Assembly: GCA_030538085.1 (NCBI GenBank)
Contig: JAUNUR010000021.1
Span: 1 to 44,709 of the forward strand
Length of the DNA stretch: 44,709 nt
Reading direction: 5' to 3'
Origin: Pseudomonadota bacterium
GTDB taxonomy: Bacteria > Pseudomonadota > Gammaproteobacteria > Burkholderiales > Burkholderiaceae_C
Shown here: positions 2,000 through 12,945 of the stretch, piece after piece
How the letters are laid out: each line of letters begins with the position of its first letter
How positions within the stretch are numbered: position 1 is the first letter of the stretch
The notes under the pieces: generated by a model
What the model was told of the DNA's origin: nothing
Database searches by the model: none
What the model saw: the letters and a program-made list of their open reading frames with translations, nothing else
Made by a program: the position numbers and the translations under genes

Positions 2000-3010
2000 A
2001 TGGAAACCGCTCAAGCTGCCCTCTGGGTCGTGATGCTGCTGGTGCTGCTCGCGATCGCGTTCGACTTCATGAACGGCTTTCACGATGCCGCCAACTCGAT
2101 TGCCACCGTGGTCTCCACCGGCGTGCTCAAGCCCGCTCAAGCGGTGATGTTCGCGGCTTTCTTCAACTTCATCGCCATCTTCGTGTTCCACCTGTCCGTG
2201 GCCGCCACGGTGGGCAAGGGTATCGTGCAGCCCGGCGTGGTGGACACGCATGTGGTGTTCGGTGCGCTGGTGGGCGCTATCAGCTGGAACCTGCTGACCT
2301 GGTACTACGGCATTCCCAGCAGTTCCTCGCACGCGCTCATCGGCGGCATCGTTGGCGCGGTGATCGCCAAGTCGGGCTTCGGGCACCTGATCGCCAGCGG
2401 CATCCTGAAGACGGTGGCCTTCATCTTCGTGTCGCCGCTGCTGGGTTACCTGCTGGGCTCGCTGCTGATGGTGGCCGTGGCCTGGTTGTTTCGCCGCACG
2501 CGGCCGGGCCGGGTGGACAGGTGGTTCCGCCGCCTGCAACTGGTCAGCGCCGGCGCCTACAGCCTGGGCCATGGCGGCAACGACGCGCAGAAAACCATCG
2601 GCATCATCTGGCTGCTGCTGATCGCCACCGGCTACACGGCGGCCAGCGACGCGGCGCCTCCCATGTGGGTGATCGTCAGCTGCTACGCGGCCATCGCGGC
2701 CGGCACCATGTTCGGCGGCTGGCGCATCGTCAAGACGATGGGGCAGAAAATCACCAAGCTCAAGCCCGTGGGCGGCTTCTGTGCCGAAACGGGTGGGGCG
2801 CTGACGCTGTTTCTGGCCACGGCCTTCGGCATTCCGGTGTCGACCACGCACACCATCACCGGCGCGATTGTGGGCGTGGGCTCCACCCAGCGTGCCAGCG
2901 CCGTGCGCTGGGGCGTGGCGGGCAACATCGTGTGGGCATGGATTTTGACCATCCCCGCCAGCGCGCTGGTGGCGGCACTGGGGTACTGGTTCAGTCTGGC
3001 GTTGTTTTGA
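2000..3010 (+). CDS. pit: Inorganic phosphate transporter, Pit family
   Basis: A 336-residue inner-membrane protein with the duplicated Pit signatures: FDFMNGFHDAANSIATVVST near the N-terminus and GIPVSTTHTITGAIVGVG near the C-terminus, plus the central GHGGNDAQKTIGI motif. It imports phosphate, probably as a neutral metal-phosphate complex with protons, at low affinity. About ten membrane segments are visible. I chose ATG at 2000; the frame also allows a GTG at 1955, but the extra 15 residues look non-native and have no ribosome site. It forms a two-gene unit with the DUF47 gene upstream. No clear terminator follows it. Confidence 0.93.
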   Translation: METAQAALWVVMLLVLLAIAFDFMNGFHDAANSIATVVSTGVLKPAQAVMFAAFFNFIAIFVFHLSVAATVGKGIVQPGVVDTHVVFGALVGAISWNLLTWYYGIPSSSSHALIGGIVGAVIAKSGFGHLIASGILKTVAFIFVSPLLGYLLGSLLMVAVAWLFRRTRPGRVDRWFRRLQLVSAGAYSLGHGGNDAQKTIGIIWLLLIATGYTAASDAAPPMWVIVSCYAAIAAGTMFGGWRIVKTMGQKITKLKPVGGFCAETGGALTLFLATAFGIPVSTTHTITGAIVGVGSTQRASAVRWGVAGNIVWAWILTIPASALVAALGYWFSLALF

Positions 3011-3151
3011 GAGGCTGCCCTCAAACTCCTCGCGCCGAGACATTGAACAGGCTCTGAGTGCCATCCCTTTCCGGGGCCTTGGTGAGCGTGGGAGTTTGCG
3101 CTGCGCTTGAGCAGCCGCAGCCGGAAGAGGGCGCAACGTCTTCACCCTTTC

Positions 3152-3260
3152 CCGTCATTGCGGCGAAGGCCGCAATCCACACGGTGTCCGCGGGTCAACA
3201 CCGTGCCAAGGTGGCGGCGCCATGGATTACGGGCGAGTGGGCAGCACACAAACGATGACC
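3152..3260. repeat. REPIN/MITE-like inverted repeat element
   Basis: The left end has GTCATTGCGG...CCGCAATCCA (3154-3179), itself a hairpin. The right end has TGGATTACGGGC (3223-3234) and CGATGAC (3253-3259), an imperfect reverse complement of the left end. The CATTGCGG/CCGCAATCC core is typical of dispersed palindromic elements found in many proteobacterial genomes. No protein is encoded. Confidence 0.4.
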
Positions 3261-3407
3261 AATGACTGCGGCTGGCGCCGCACGACAAACGAGGCCATTT
3301 GTCATTTTGAAAGCCAATGTGTAAGAGATCGCTGTATTTGGGCAACTTCCCGGTACATTGGCCCAATCTTCCTGGGAGGAAGGTATCAAAAACGACCGAT
3401 TGGGAGA

Positions 3408-3413
3408 TATAAT
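3408..3413 (+). promoter_or_regulatory. Putative -10 box of the rpsP promoter
   Basis: A perfect TATAAT lies 117 bases before the rpsP start. The -35 region is weak: the hexamer at the right spacing is roughly ATCAAA (3385-3390). It would give a leader of about 110 bases. Assigned by sequence match only. Confidence 0.45.
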
Positions 3414-3530
3414 GATGGGTTTTCGGTGTGTCGCTGGCCGGGTGGCCATGTCGCGTGTCTCAACATCGGAAGAACCCTGGTGCACGGTCACGCCGGCACC
3501 GAGTCACCACCCACAGGATTCAAACACATC

Positions 3531-3791
3531 ATGGTCGTTATTCGTCTTTCGCGCGGCGGCGCCAAGGCCCGTCCCTTCTTCAACATCGTGGTTGCCGACA
3601 AGCGCGTGCGCCGCGATGGCCGCTTCATCGAGCGCATCGGTTTCTACAACCCCACCGCCACCGGTGGCGCCGAAGGCCTGCGCATTGCCCAGGACCGCCT
3701 GAACCACTGGCTCAGCGTTGGTGCCCAGCCGTCGCCCACCGTGCAGCGCCTGGTCAAGCAGGCTGCCAAGGCCGCGCCCGCCGCCGCCTGA
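3531..3791 (+). CDS. rpsP: 30S ribosomal protein S16
   Basis: An 86-residue protein starting [20 protein letters not shown], followed by [20 protein letters not shown]: the full bS16 fold. It is a structural and assembly protein of the small ribosomal subunit. Length matches the family (about 80-90). The ATG at 3531 gives the canonical N-terminus; the open frame extends further upstream but with unrelated sequence. It is followed after 8 bases by rimM, the usual order. The common downstream genes trmD and rplS are absent here. Confidence 0.98.
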
Positions 3792-3799
3792 CCGTACCG

Positions 3800-4366
3800 A
3801 TGAACCCAGGCCTGGAGCCGGCCGAACTGCCGGCGGACGCGGTCGAAGTCGGCCGCGTGCTGGACGCCTGGGGCATCAAGGGCTGGTTCAAGATCCAGCC
3901 TTACAGCGCCTCGCCCGAGGCGCTTTTTTCTTCCAAGCGCTGGTTTTTGCAGCCCGCCGAGCGCGGCGCCAAGAACTCGTTCGCGGGCACGGTGCTGCTG
4001 AAGATCAAGCAAGCCCGGGACCACGCCGACGCGGTGGTCGCCAGCGCGCAGGATATCCCCGACCGCACCGCCGCCGAAGGCCTCAAGGGCGCGCGCATCT
4101 TCATCGCCCGCTCGTCCTTTCCCACGCTCGAAGAGGGCGAGTATTACTGGGTCGATCTGATCGGCCTGGCCGTTATCAACCGCGAGGGCGTGGCGCTGGG
4201 CACCGTGACCGACCTCATGGCCACCGGTCCGCAGCAAGTGCTGGTGATTGGTTACGAGGAAGATGGCAAGCCGCAGGAGCGCATGATCCCGTTCGTCGAT
4301 GCGTACGTGGACGACGTTGATCTGGCGGGCAAGCGCATCACGGTGGATTGGCAGCCCGACTACTGA
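3800..4366 (+). CDS. rimM: Ribosome maturation factor RimM
   Basis: A 188-residue protein with an N-terminal RimM beta-barrel (VEVGRVLDAWGIKGWFKI near residue 14) and a C-terminal PRC-barrel (EGEYYWVDLIGLAVINREG near residue 112). RimM binds S19 and helps mature the 30S head domain. ATG at 3800 gives the family start; it lies 8 bases after rpsP, so the two are co-transcribed. In most proteobacteria trmD and rplS follow. Here the next gene is ftsB on the opposite strand, converging with only 30 bases between stops and no obvious terminator. Confidence 0.96.
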   Translation: MNPGLEPAELPADAVEVGRVLDAWGIKGWFKIQPYSASPEALFSSKRWFLQPAERGAKNSFAGTVLLKIKQARDHADAVVASAQDIPDRTAAEGLKGARIFIARSSFPTLEEGEYYWVDLIGLAVINREGVALGTVTDLMATGPQQVLVIGYEEDGKPQERMIPFVDAYVDDVDLAGKRITVDWQPDY

Positions 4367-4396
4367 CGCGGGCGCGGCGGGGGCAAGCGGCGCGGT

Positions 4397-4675
4397 TCAG
4401 CGCGGCGTGACCTGCACGAAAATCTCATTCGGCTTGACCATGCCCAACTCGATGCGGGCACGCTCCTCGACCATGCCCAGGCCAGCGCGCAGGTCTTCCA
4501 CCTCCGACGCCAGTTGCTCGTTCACCAACCGTGCCTGCGCATTGGCGGCCTTTTGCTGATCCAGCTTGCGCTGCAGCGCCGTCACGTTGGGCAGGCTGCC
4601 ACGCCCCACCCACAGTTGTGCTTGGACGACCACCAGCAGCACGATCAGGACGGCTGGGACGATGCGGTGAACCAT
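4397..4675 (-). CDS. ftsB: Cell division protein FtsB
   Basis: A 92-residue bitopic protein: short cytoplasmic start, one membrane helix (IVPAVLIVLLVVVQAQLWVG, about residues 5-24), then a periplasmic coiled coil (VTALQRKLDQQKAANAQARL, residues 31-50, and beyond) and a family-like tail. FtsB forms the FtsQBL complex that links divisome assembly to septal peptidoglycan synthesis. It lies downstream of eno on the same strand, 138 bases away, the standard eno-ftsB arrangement. Length fits the family (about 90-105). Confidence 0.93.
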   Translation of the reverse strand: MVHRIVPAVLIVLLVVVQAQLWVGRGSLPNVTALQRKLDQQKAANAQARLVNEQLASEVEDLRAGLGMVEERARIELGMVKPNEIFVQVTPR

Positions 4676-4813
4676 GGCGGGCGAAGGCTGATGAAGCGGT
4701 GCTGGGCTGCTATCGTTTCAGTATAGCGCCAGTTTGTCTCGTACAGTCACACAGACGGGGGAGGCAGACAGATCAGTTGAAGAAGGCTCTGATCATCCGC
4801 GCCCCCGGCGATA

Positions 4814-6124
<1,311 letters not shown>

Positions 6125-7360: not shown

Positions 7361-7554
7361 GAGTCAAACAACCCCAAATCATCGTTTCCTGGCGGCACCC
7401 GACGGTGCGCCGGCCAAGCTGGACATTGTGCCATTGTTCGAGGCGGCGGCGCCTCGGCGGTGTCATGGCGCGCACATACAATGACATCCGCAGTGCCGCT
7501 GGCGGAGGTGCACCGGAGGCGTCAAGGCACGCGCTTTTTTAATAAAGGAATAAC
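7361..7554. promoter_or_regulatory. Divergent promoter region kdsA / M48 peptidase
   Basis: A 194-base gap. A TACAAT box (7477-7482) lies 73 bases before the M48 gene but has no clear -35 partner. A ribosome site AAAGGA (7545-7550) precedes its ATG. I found no recognisable remnant of pyrG or another gene. Confidence 0.35.
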
Positions 7555-8799
7555 ATGAATAAACTGGTTTATCCCAATGAAACGATATTGGGATGGTTGA
7601 CCTTGATATTGGGTTCGGCGGTCTGGATTTTTCTGGCGGCGGGACTTGTAAATGCATTGCCCAGCGCGGCGCTGGTGGGTATTCTGGGCAGCCTGTTAGT
7701 GGCATTATTGGTTGGCTTTTTGTTTTATTTGATGGCGCAATCAGCACTGATCTCTCATATTCGCGGATCGGGAGTCGAGCTATCACCGGAGCAGTTGCCC
7801 GACTTGCATGCGAAAGTGCAGTTTTGCATGGAACGCCTGCAGTTGAAGAAAGCGCCAAGGGTGTACGTGCTCAATGGCGATGGCGGCATGAACGCCTTTG
7901 CCACCAAGTTCCTGGGGGTGCCGTATGTGGTGCTGCTGTCCAGCGTGGTTGACGCCATGAAAGAGCACCCCGATGGCGTCAACTTCTACATCGGCCACGA
8001 AATGGGGCATTTGCGGATGCGTCACTTGTCGTGGCAGTTCCTGCGCTGGCCGGTGTTGTGGCTGCCTTTGCTGGGCGCGGCCTATTCCCGTGCGCGGGAA
8101 AGCACCTGTGACCGGCATGGTCTGGCATGCTGCGCTTCGCCCCAAAATGCCGCCTATGCGCTGGTGGCACTGGCTTCGGGTGCCGAGCGGTGGAAAGACA
8201 CCAGTTTGCAAGCCTTTGTTGGGCAAACCCGCTACACCAAAGGTTTCTGGATGTCCCTGCACGAACTGGTGGGCGCCTATCCGTGGCTGACCAAACGTGT
8301 TGCGCGGGTGATGAACCTGGAACAGCCCGAGATTCCACGCCGCAACATATTTTCTTACTTGTTGGCGATCCTGATTCCCTATTCGGGTCGCCTGGGTGTT
8401 TGGGGCATATTGATCTGGGTGTATCTGATCGGGGTGCTGGTGGCCGTGGCCCTGCCAGCTTATCAAGATTACACCGTGCGTGCCAAGCTGACGGCGGTGG
8501 ATGCGCTGGTGCAGCCGGTGACCGCGGCGCTTGGACAGGCGTATCAAAAAGATGAAGCCATTCCTGAGTCACTTCAGGAAGTGAATGCGGAGTCGACGCT
8601 GGCGTCTGGCGAGTCACTGGAGTACGACTCCGACACGATGACCGTCACCGTGCACACCAGCCAAGGGCCGCTGCTGTACACCCCGAAGCTGGACAGTGAC
8701 GGCTCCGTGGTATGGAGTTGCGCGGGCGTCGAGGGTGCTGATGGAAAGGCCGATATTCGCCCGAATCAATTGCCTGCCGCGTGCAAGGAAAAAGAGTAA
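7555..8799 (+). CDS. M48 family metalloprotease with C-terminal type IV pilin-like domain
   Basis: A 414-residue membrane protein in two parts. Residues 1-290 form an M48 (Ste24/HtpX-like) zinc peptidase: two N-terminal membrane helices (about 10-35 and 40-65), the zinc motif H148-E-M-G-H152, and a likely third ligand E182 in ESTCDRHG. Then comes a membrane helix that merges into the pilin-like sequence GVLVAVALPAYQDYTVRAKL (293-312), the hallmark after the prepilin cleavage site, though the cleavage motif itself is missing. The tail has two cysteines in pilin-type context (VVWSCAG and LPAACKEKE), expected to form the pilin disulfide loop. Family knowledge suggests membrane-protein quality control for M48; the pilin part may bind or sense substrates. 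The gene stands alone, and its 5' part is visibly AT-richer than neighbours. Function unproven. Confidence 0.85.
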   Translation: MNKLVYPNETILGWLTLILGSAVWIFLAAGLVNALPSAALVGILGSLLVALLVGFLFYLMAQSALISHIRGSGVELSPEQLPDLHAKVQFCMERLQLKKAPRVYVLNGDGGMNAFATKFLGVPYVVLLSSVVDAMKEHPDGVNFYIGHEMGHLRMRHLSWQFLRWPVLWLPLLGAAYSRARESTCDRHGLACCASPQNAAYALVALASGAERWKDTSLQAFVGQTRYTKGFWMSLHELVGAYPWLTKRVARVMNLEQPEIPRRNIFSYLLAILIPYSGRLGVWGILIWVYLIGVLVAVALPAYQDYTVRAKLTAVDALVQPVTAALGQAYQKDEAIPESLQEVNAESTLASGESLEYDSDTMTVTVHTSQGPLLYTPKLDSDGSVVWSCAGVEGADGKADIRPNQLPAACKEKE

Positions 8800-12033: not shown

Positions 12034-12945
12034 TCAGGGATTGGAATCAGCGGCGTCGTTGAGCGCCAGAAACTGCTCGGGGTTCTGCCGTTCGCCACGC
12101 CGCTGCACCTCGTAATGCAGATGCGGGCCGGTGGAGCGGCCAGTGGAGCCCAGCAGGCCCACCACTTCGCCAGCGGTCAGTTGCTGGCCTTTCTCAACCT
12201 CGATGCGCGACAGGTGCGCGTACAGCGTGTTGTAGCCGTGGGCGTGCGCCACTTCCACCAGATTGCCGTAGCCGCCTTGCCAGCCGGCGAACACCACGCG
12301 GCCAGCGGCGGTGACCTGCACGGGATCGCCCGTGGTGCCCTTGAAGTCGAGCCCGCCATGCGATTCGGCGCCACGGCCGGTGAAGGGGTTGGCGCGTTCG
12401 CCAAAGGCGGAGGTCATCCCCCCCTCGTGCGGCAGGCCCAGGGGGATGGATTGCAGCGCCTCCAGCAGGTTGCTGGCGTCGTTCGCGAAGCTGCCGGTGT
12501 AGGGCACGGGCTTGCCTACCTGGGCTTGCATGATCGGGCCACCGGCCGCGGGGTTGGGCTGGCCCTTGGGCGGCTCGATGGAAACCGGCTTGACGTTGAC
12601 GCCGCGCGCCTGCAGGTAGGTCTGCAGGTCGCCAATCATCTGTTCGGACTTTTTCAGCGCCGCCAGCTTGGCATTGATCTCGGCGGATGTGAAGTTCTTC
12701 AGGTCCGCCACTTCCTGGCGCAGGGCGTTGATTTCCTGCCGGCGTTCGTTCAGCGCCTGCTGGCTGTCCGCGCGGGAGATCAGGTGCTGCGCGCCCAGGC
12801 CCACCAGCCCCACGCCCAGCAGCACGGTGCTGGCACCCAGGCCCATCAGCAGCGGCCGAAGCCAGGCAAGCAGCCGGGTGTCGACTTCAAGAGAGCGTGT
12901 CTGCTCGGGCGTGACGATGAGAACGGTGGATCGAGCCATGGGCAT
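12034..12945 (-). CDS. M23 (LytM) family metallopeptidase, membrane-anchored
   Basis: A 303-residue protein: cytoplasmic start, one membrane helix (WLRPLLMGLGASTVLLGVGL, about residues 29-48), a coiled coil (near 60-115, SQQALNERRQEINALRQEV), a linker, and a C-terminal LytM domain with the zinc motifs SHGGLDF and GPHLHYEV. It probably cleaves peptidoglycan cross-links or activates amidases in the periplasm. Both metal motifs are intact, so it is likely active. Start could be the ATG at 12945 or the one at 12939. It precedes a bactofilin gene, probably in one operon. Confidence 0.93.
   Translation of the reverse strand: MPMARSTVLIVTPEQTRSLEVDTRLLAWLRPLLMGLGASTVLLGVGLVGLGAQHLISRADSQQALNERRQEINALRQEVADLKNFTSAEINAKLAALKKSEQMIGDLQTYLQARGVNVKPVSIEPPKGQPNPAAGGPIMQAQVGKPVPYTGSFANDASNLLEALQSIPLGLPHEGGMTSAFGERANPFTGRGAESHGGLDFKGTTGDPVQVTAAGRVVFAGWQGGYGNLVEVAHAHGYNTLYAHLSRIEVEKGQQLTAGEVVGLLGSTGRSTGPHLHYEVQRRGERQNPEQFLALNDAADSNP

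Follow-up and report, generated by a model that had tools for sequence, protein, structure and literature searches.

A membrane M48 protease with a built-in type IVa pilin module, a candidate pilin-sensing protein

What might a membrane protease do with a pilin fixed to its own C-terminus? The question is raised by a gene at 7555..8799 (+ strand, as are all features of the gene given below) of contig JAUNUR010000021.1 in the Burkholderiales assembly GCA_030538085.1, of which positions 1 to 44,709 (44,709 nucleotides) are the window analysed here. The gene is a single open frame for a protein of 414 residues, in which an M48 protease is joined to a type IV pilin-like domain, as a sequence-only reading had already proposed. 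The sequence and the models agree on an M48 site, a pilin helix and head, the lack of both a leader and the glutamate Glu5, and a junction conserved among relatives. The best reading of these features is a pilin-binding or pilin-sensing membrane protease, to which we give a rough probability of 0.45.

An M48 protease joined to a pilin module

The N-terminus of the window protein is a transmembrane (TM) hairpin, in which hydropathy placed TM1 at residues 11-29 (7585..7641; model helix 7-34) and TM2 at residues 39-57 (7669..7725; model helix 37-72), with three clear TM segments overall. The M48 catalytic domain lies at about residues 62-262 (7738..8340), where PF01435 (Peptidase_M48) scored 61 bits against a cut-off of 20.3, and is probably cytoplasmic, with 23 K+R versus 16 D+E in residues 62-263. 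It contains the HEMGH zinc motif (residues 148-152, 7996..8010) and ESTCD (residues 182-186, 8098..8112), the latter carrying the third zinc ligand and the EXXXD motif. HExxH was kept in 24 of the 25 members checked, and also in L122 and L123, while E182 and D186 were invariant in 23 of 23 sequences; the zinc site is intact and zinc-dependent proteolysis is predicted. The exception, L049, is a head-bearing member that has lost HExxH (GRELSH) and is a possible pseudoprotease. The catalytic part also holds C91, C185 and C192 (codons at window 7825, 8107 and 8128), of which C185 and C192 were invariant and C91 nearly so in alignment A3. Run by sequence against the PDB, the M48 part matched nothing at E 0.01.

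The pilin alpha-1 helix spans residues 282-333 (8398..8553) in the AlphaFold model and is also recognised by its helix score; TM3 (residues 282-300) runs on within it into the head, so that the helix is continuous with the membrane segment, as the earlier reading had stated. The predicted local distance difference test (pLDDT) score was 64-79 at residues 281-300. The type IVa pilin head, probably periplasmic, occupies residues 308-411 (8476..8787; PF00114 1-108). With PF00114 (Pilin) the whole protein scored 19.5 bits, short of the cut-off of 22, and residues 286-414 alone passed that cut-off at 23.4 bits, spanning the complete profile; the model displayed the pilin fold of a long helix packed on a beta-sheet. 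Both outcomes bear out what the sequence-only reading had expected of the C-terminus. W387 and the tail cysteines C389 (8719..8721) and C410 (8782..8784) were invariant in 12/12 sequences of alignment A2 and in 17/17 heads of alignment A4. The PDB search with the C-terminus matched PilE/PilA-type pilins, mainly via the helix, and Foldseek with the whole model found no match below 0.001, its best match being a pilin (1.2e-3). Pilin recognition from single sequences was patchy, because Pfam Pilin was seen in only 8 of 23 relatives (alignment A1, E 0.05; 12 of the 23 headed) and in 10 of the 18 headed members of A3 (E 0.01; L118 is incomplete in A3 and has its correct end in A4). Pfam, head-only profiles, the AlphaFold model and structure comparison concur that the C-terminal module is, on these predictions, a type IVa pilin.

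The fusion protein itself is not a pilin. A leader with a prepilin peptidase site (G/FTLIE; G/FxxxE before the helix) was found in 0/28 members, in line with the earlier claim, so that the prepilin peptidase has no recognisable site. Glu5 was also absent in 28/28 members, and the window protein has Gly at that position. Since both are missing, neither release nor polymerisation of the usual kind is expected of the pilin module.

The M48 part was matched in 16/399 genomes of the same order (1e-8), 6/369 of the class (1e-20) and 13/170 of the family (1e-20), the own genome being included each time. Two of the 16 order matches (L007, L050) belong to other M48 proteins, which have no pilin. Members with the pilin C-terminus number 28 including the window protein: 14 from the order (L036-L049), four more from the class (L051-L054) and ten more from the family (L115-L123, L125). 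Their distribution indicates a scattered but conserved M48-pilin protein family. That two genes were joined by mistake in gene prediction or assembly, or that the gene is a pseudogene, could be argued from the same genus, where no ortholog of the M48 part was found in 28 genomes (57 to 100% complete; full-length query). The only match there was of 28%, in G028, to residues 69-163, whereas the pilin region was matched in 25 of the 28. However, the same junction recurs in the other 27 members, which are spread over many genera (L047 being cut at its contig start), and we therefore rejected the assembly artefact. The likely ribosome binding site AAAGGA (7544..7549), with the ATG five bases on, and ratios of nonsynonymous to synonymous substitution rates (dN/dS) below 1 in relatives also speak against it, and this explanation is highly improbable.

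The own genome holds one copy of the fusion. Ten of its M48 matches were over the cut-off, and the window protein scored lowest among them. The same genome also has a classical pilin gene with a leader (L132 7668-8285, - strand), at a distance of about 3 kb from a BepA-like M48 protein (2814-5012, - strand) and near an O-antigen-ligase-like gene, these L132 names being given by eye. In a relative of the same family (L133, G908:C1:244000-256000; pieces L124 and L125), the fusion gene is split near codon 184 by about 9.5 kb containing a Tn3-type transposase and HlyD/ABC/MacB/outer-membrane efflux-type genes (named by eye), and L125 is the second piece of this interrupted gene.

Constancy of the membrane helix and constraint on the head

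The head was present in 22 of the 28 members, including all 13 family-search members, and absent in six (L042, L043, L044, L047, L048 and L052). The pilin helix was scored in the 18 order and class members (L036-L049 and L051-L054) with a matrix from 34 leader-bearing pilin helices of fetched loci, many of which had been fetched by likeness to the fusion protein. Scores were +11 to +60 in 17/18 members and +11 to +34 in the six headless ones; the window protein scored 41.2 versus a shuffle maximum of -14.2. The remaining member, L049, scored -11.3, yet above its own shuffles. The top of 500 shuffles was 0.1 for any of the 18 and at most -12.0 for each headless member, and the N-terminal TM parts of family proteins and the C-termini of L001-L004, L007 and L055 scored -25 or lower. 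Because six of the 28 members are headless and retain the pilin membrane helix, this helix, and not the head, is the constant part of the family as judged from sequence. No convincing head relic was found near the six headless genes; the best hit (E 0.095) lay within the retained helix end.

These data bear on a simpler explanation, in which a leaderless pilin gene was captured as a mere membrane anchor and stalk, a TM helix with a soluble cap and no pilin function, and the protease performs general quality control of the HtpX kind. On the M48 tree, in which many of the deep branches are unresolved, the headless label needs four changes, and well-supported branches force at least two of them; head dN was above M48 dN in 7/7 pairs. 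Both fit an anchor. So do the homologues L001-L004, of which three are named Alphaproteobacteria, with other hydrophobic C-termini that are not pilin-like. Against the anchor, the headless members preserve the pilin helix sequence beyond hydrophobicity. The head is also under constraint, judging by the invariance of W387, C389 and C410 and by a dN/dS of 0.31 to 0.56 in the five computable pairs; the M48 ratios of three pairs were 0.055, 0.095 and 0.149, and L040/L120, with an M48 ratio of 0.476, showed the reverse order. A further point against it is L055 (995-2140), another M48 protein with a different, maybe GspG-like C-terminal head. Its scores against GspG were weak (E 0.0083 and E 0.061, no Pfam match), and the head may be a hint of separate origin. 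We regard the anchor explanation as somewhat unlikely.

Type IV pili, topology and a possible mechanism

The sequence-only reading had suggested looking for co-occurrence with pil genes, and this was indeed found. PilB (TIGR02538) was over the cut-off in 19/19 genomes, namely 18 with the pilin helix, from the order and class searches, and G632, whose M48 protein may bear a GspG-like head. In an even draw from the order, PilB was present in 135/250 genomes, eight of which carry the fusion, leaving 127/242 without it. These 242 were taken as being among the 399 searched order genomes and as fusion-free by their handles, 95 not being listed by name. Fisher tests, with no correction for ancestry, gave p 1.7e-4 by genome (14/14 vs 127/242) and p 1.8e-3 by genus (11/11 vs 62/115), with uneven scoring: five candidates per genome in the order draw and all candidates in fusion genomes. 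PilB was over the cut-off in 0/4 genomes of L001-L004, with a weaker match in three and completeness not told. The association with PilB makes a pilin-linked role for the fusion protein plausible and counts against a mere anchor.

The head had been thought to be displayed beside the protease, a claim that we could not uphold, as the two probably lie on opposite sides of the membrane. The charge distribution, the two-cysteine head and a BlaR1/ZMPSTE24-like fold suggest that the zinc site is on the cytoplasmic side and the head in the periplasm; the charge bias and the TM count agree with a cytosolic zinc site and a C-terminal domain on the opposite face. A hydrophobic stretch before TM3 leaves some doubt about this topology. 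According to the reading we prefer, the protein would be an inner-membrane M48 protease of BlaR1-like plan, with N-terminal TM helices, a cytoplasm-facing gluzincin site, a last membrane helix and an outer C-terminal domain, in which the last helix and the outer domain would be a type IVa pilin lacking the leader site and Glu5. In the inner membrane the pilin-type helix could pack against pilins (or proteins resembling them), and in the periplasm the head could contact the same partners, whereby the protein would read the pool of unassembled pilin. In response, a cytoplasmic or membrane-border substrate might be cleaved, or the pilins might be gripped directly as substrates.

A related explanation is quality control of pilins, in which the module would recruit misfolded, unprocessed or excess pilins by pilin-pilin packing and the M48 site would destroy them at the cytoplasmic membrane face. 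An intact M48 site joined to a pilin module and the co-occurrence with PilB both fit it. However, established pilin topology places most of the pilin mass across the membrane from the inferred zinc site, and of a prepilin just the short leader, which is cytoplasmic, would face that site; in addition, same-genus relatives with pilin genes manage without the fusion protein. We consider this explanation unlikely.

Pilus function is tied to gauging the amount of pilin in the membrane, and to our knowledge few receptors that read pilins are known. A protease with a built-in, non-assembling pilin is a direct candidate for a pilin receptor. Its headless relatives are natural variants in which what the membrane helix does can be told from what the head does. 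In Pseudomonas, pilins are read by PilS and minor pilins by FimS (PMC5979040). Regulated proteolysis of MucA can likewise be set off in Pseudomonas by a truncated pilin via AlgW, a different protease (PMC3684759).

The fusion gene is flanked on one side by enolase and a KdsA-like gene of the DAHP-synthetase family, and on the other by AhpF/AhpC-like genes, every one of them on the opposite strand. The families found included DAHP-synthetase and pyridine-nucleotide oxidoreductase, and the labels KdsA-like, enolase and AhpF/AhpC-like are our interpretation of the Pfam families. No neighbour gene recurred around the window and 18 further loci, no cluster being present in more than three loci. The open reading frame calling was crude, and other frames were taken instead of the M48 gene in L100, L101, L110 and L111. 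Sharing was confined to L104-L106 (one genus), L107/L114 (another genus), L100/L101 (same family) and the single pairs of window 12037-12945 with L108, L100/L110 and L108/L109. A conserved operon partner was therefore rejected, and the lack of recurrent neighbours agrees with the anchor explanation. A phage or plasmid origin was also rejected: by tblastn, no plasmid record (nine partial matches) and no phage record (one record matched) covered 80% of the fusion protein, and viral contigs, scanned for exact 8-residue patterns, yielded no match. A role in anti-phage defence was rejected with no PADLOC match.

Tethered pilins and known systems

Other tethered pilins were searched in 300 genomes each with a DUF2628-pilin protein of a Variovorax plasmid and a GYF_2-RDD-pilin protein (L013), and in the fetched loci those frames were read that had no leader motif within the 28 residues preceding the helix end. 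Besides one M48 protein, ten leaderless pilin frames were found: one zinc-ribbon DUF2628, six RDD (one, L058, being the query itself) and three of the TM2 family. The loci are L056 (2386-3363), L057, L058, L060, L061, L064, L067, L068, L069, L081 and L082. Pfam Pilin was over the cut-off in 9/9 proteins scanned, the plasmid protein included; L064 and L081 were placed by eye. As leaderless pilin frames occur on DUF2628, RDD and TM2-family proteins, several membrane proteins unrelated to each other have acquired pilin modules as their C-terminal parts, which suggests that such modules also have uses outside pili. It is possible, and proposed here only tentatively, that pilins repeatedly became fixed sensor modules on M48, RDD, TM2-family and DUF2628 proteins, reading the pilin pool of the inner membrane, or the assembly and retraction of pili, and signalling inward. 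The M48 version would do so by regulated proteolysis, as a pilin-responsive counterpart of BlaR1. No description of an M48-, RDD-, TM2- or DUF2628-pilin protein was found in the literature covered, most subscription papers being outside it. The RDD-, TM2-family and DUF2628-pilin proteins resemble the fusion in being multi-pass membrane proteins that end in a leaderless pilin module, but they have no protease, and an N-terminal zinc ribbon or GYF_2 is common among them.

As compared to type IVa major pilins (PilA/PilE, PF00114), the fusion shares the alpha-1 helix continuous with the head, the four-stranded sheet and the W-x-C...C tail, but it lacks the leader with its prepilin peptidase site as well as Glu5, and its pilin is C-terminal on a 280-residue protease. 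With HtpX and other membrane M48 proteases it shares the N-terminal TM hairpin, the M48 domain, HExxH and the distal E; it differs by the C-terminal pilin helix and head and by its best score with the NCBIfam HtpX equivalog profile, 35.2 bits, below the cut-off of 341. In overall plan the fusion resembles BlaR1/MecR1 (M56), with TM helices, a zinc site that is probably cytoplasmic and a C-terminal domain that is probably outside. The fusion is M48 by Pfam, and the M56 profile did not match the window protein; three of the 23 relatives gave M56 matches (E up to 0.05), the best being L055 (E 0.0014, 18.3 bits vs the cut-off of 31). Unlike BlaR1/MecR1, the fusion has no gene for a repressor substrate adjoining it among the window neighbours. 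BlaR1 has four TM helices, a re-entrant loop and its N-terminus outside (PMC9834060), whereas the fusion has three clear TM segments and an N-terminus that is probably inside. The outer domain of BlaR1/MecR1 is a beta-lactam sensor and that of the fusion is a pilin; the novelty lies in this combination of a membrane M48 protease, a BlaR1-like plan and a pilin as the outer domain.
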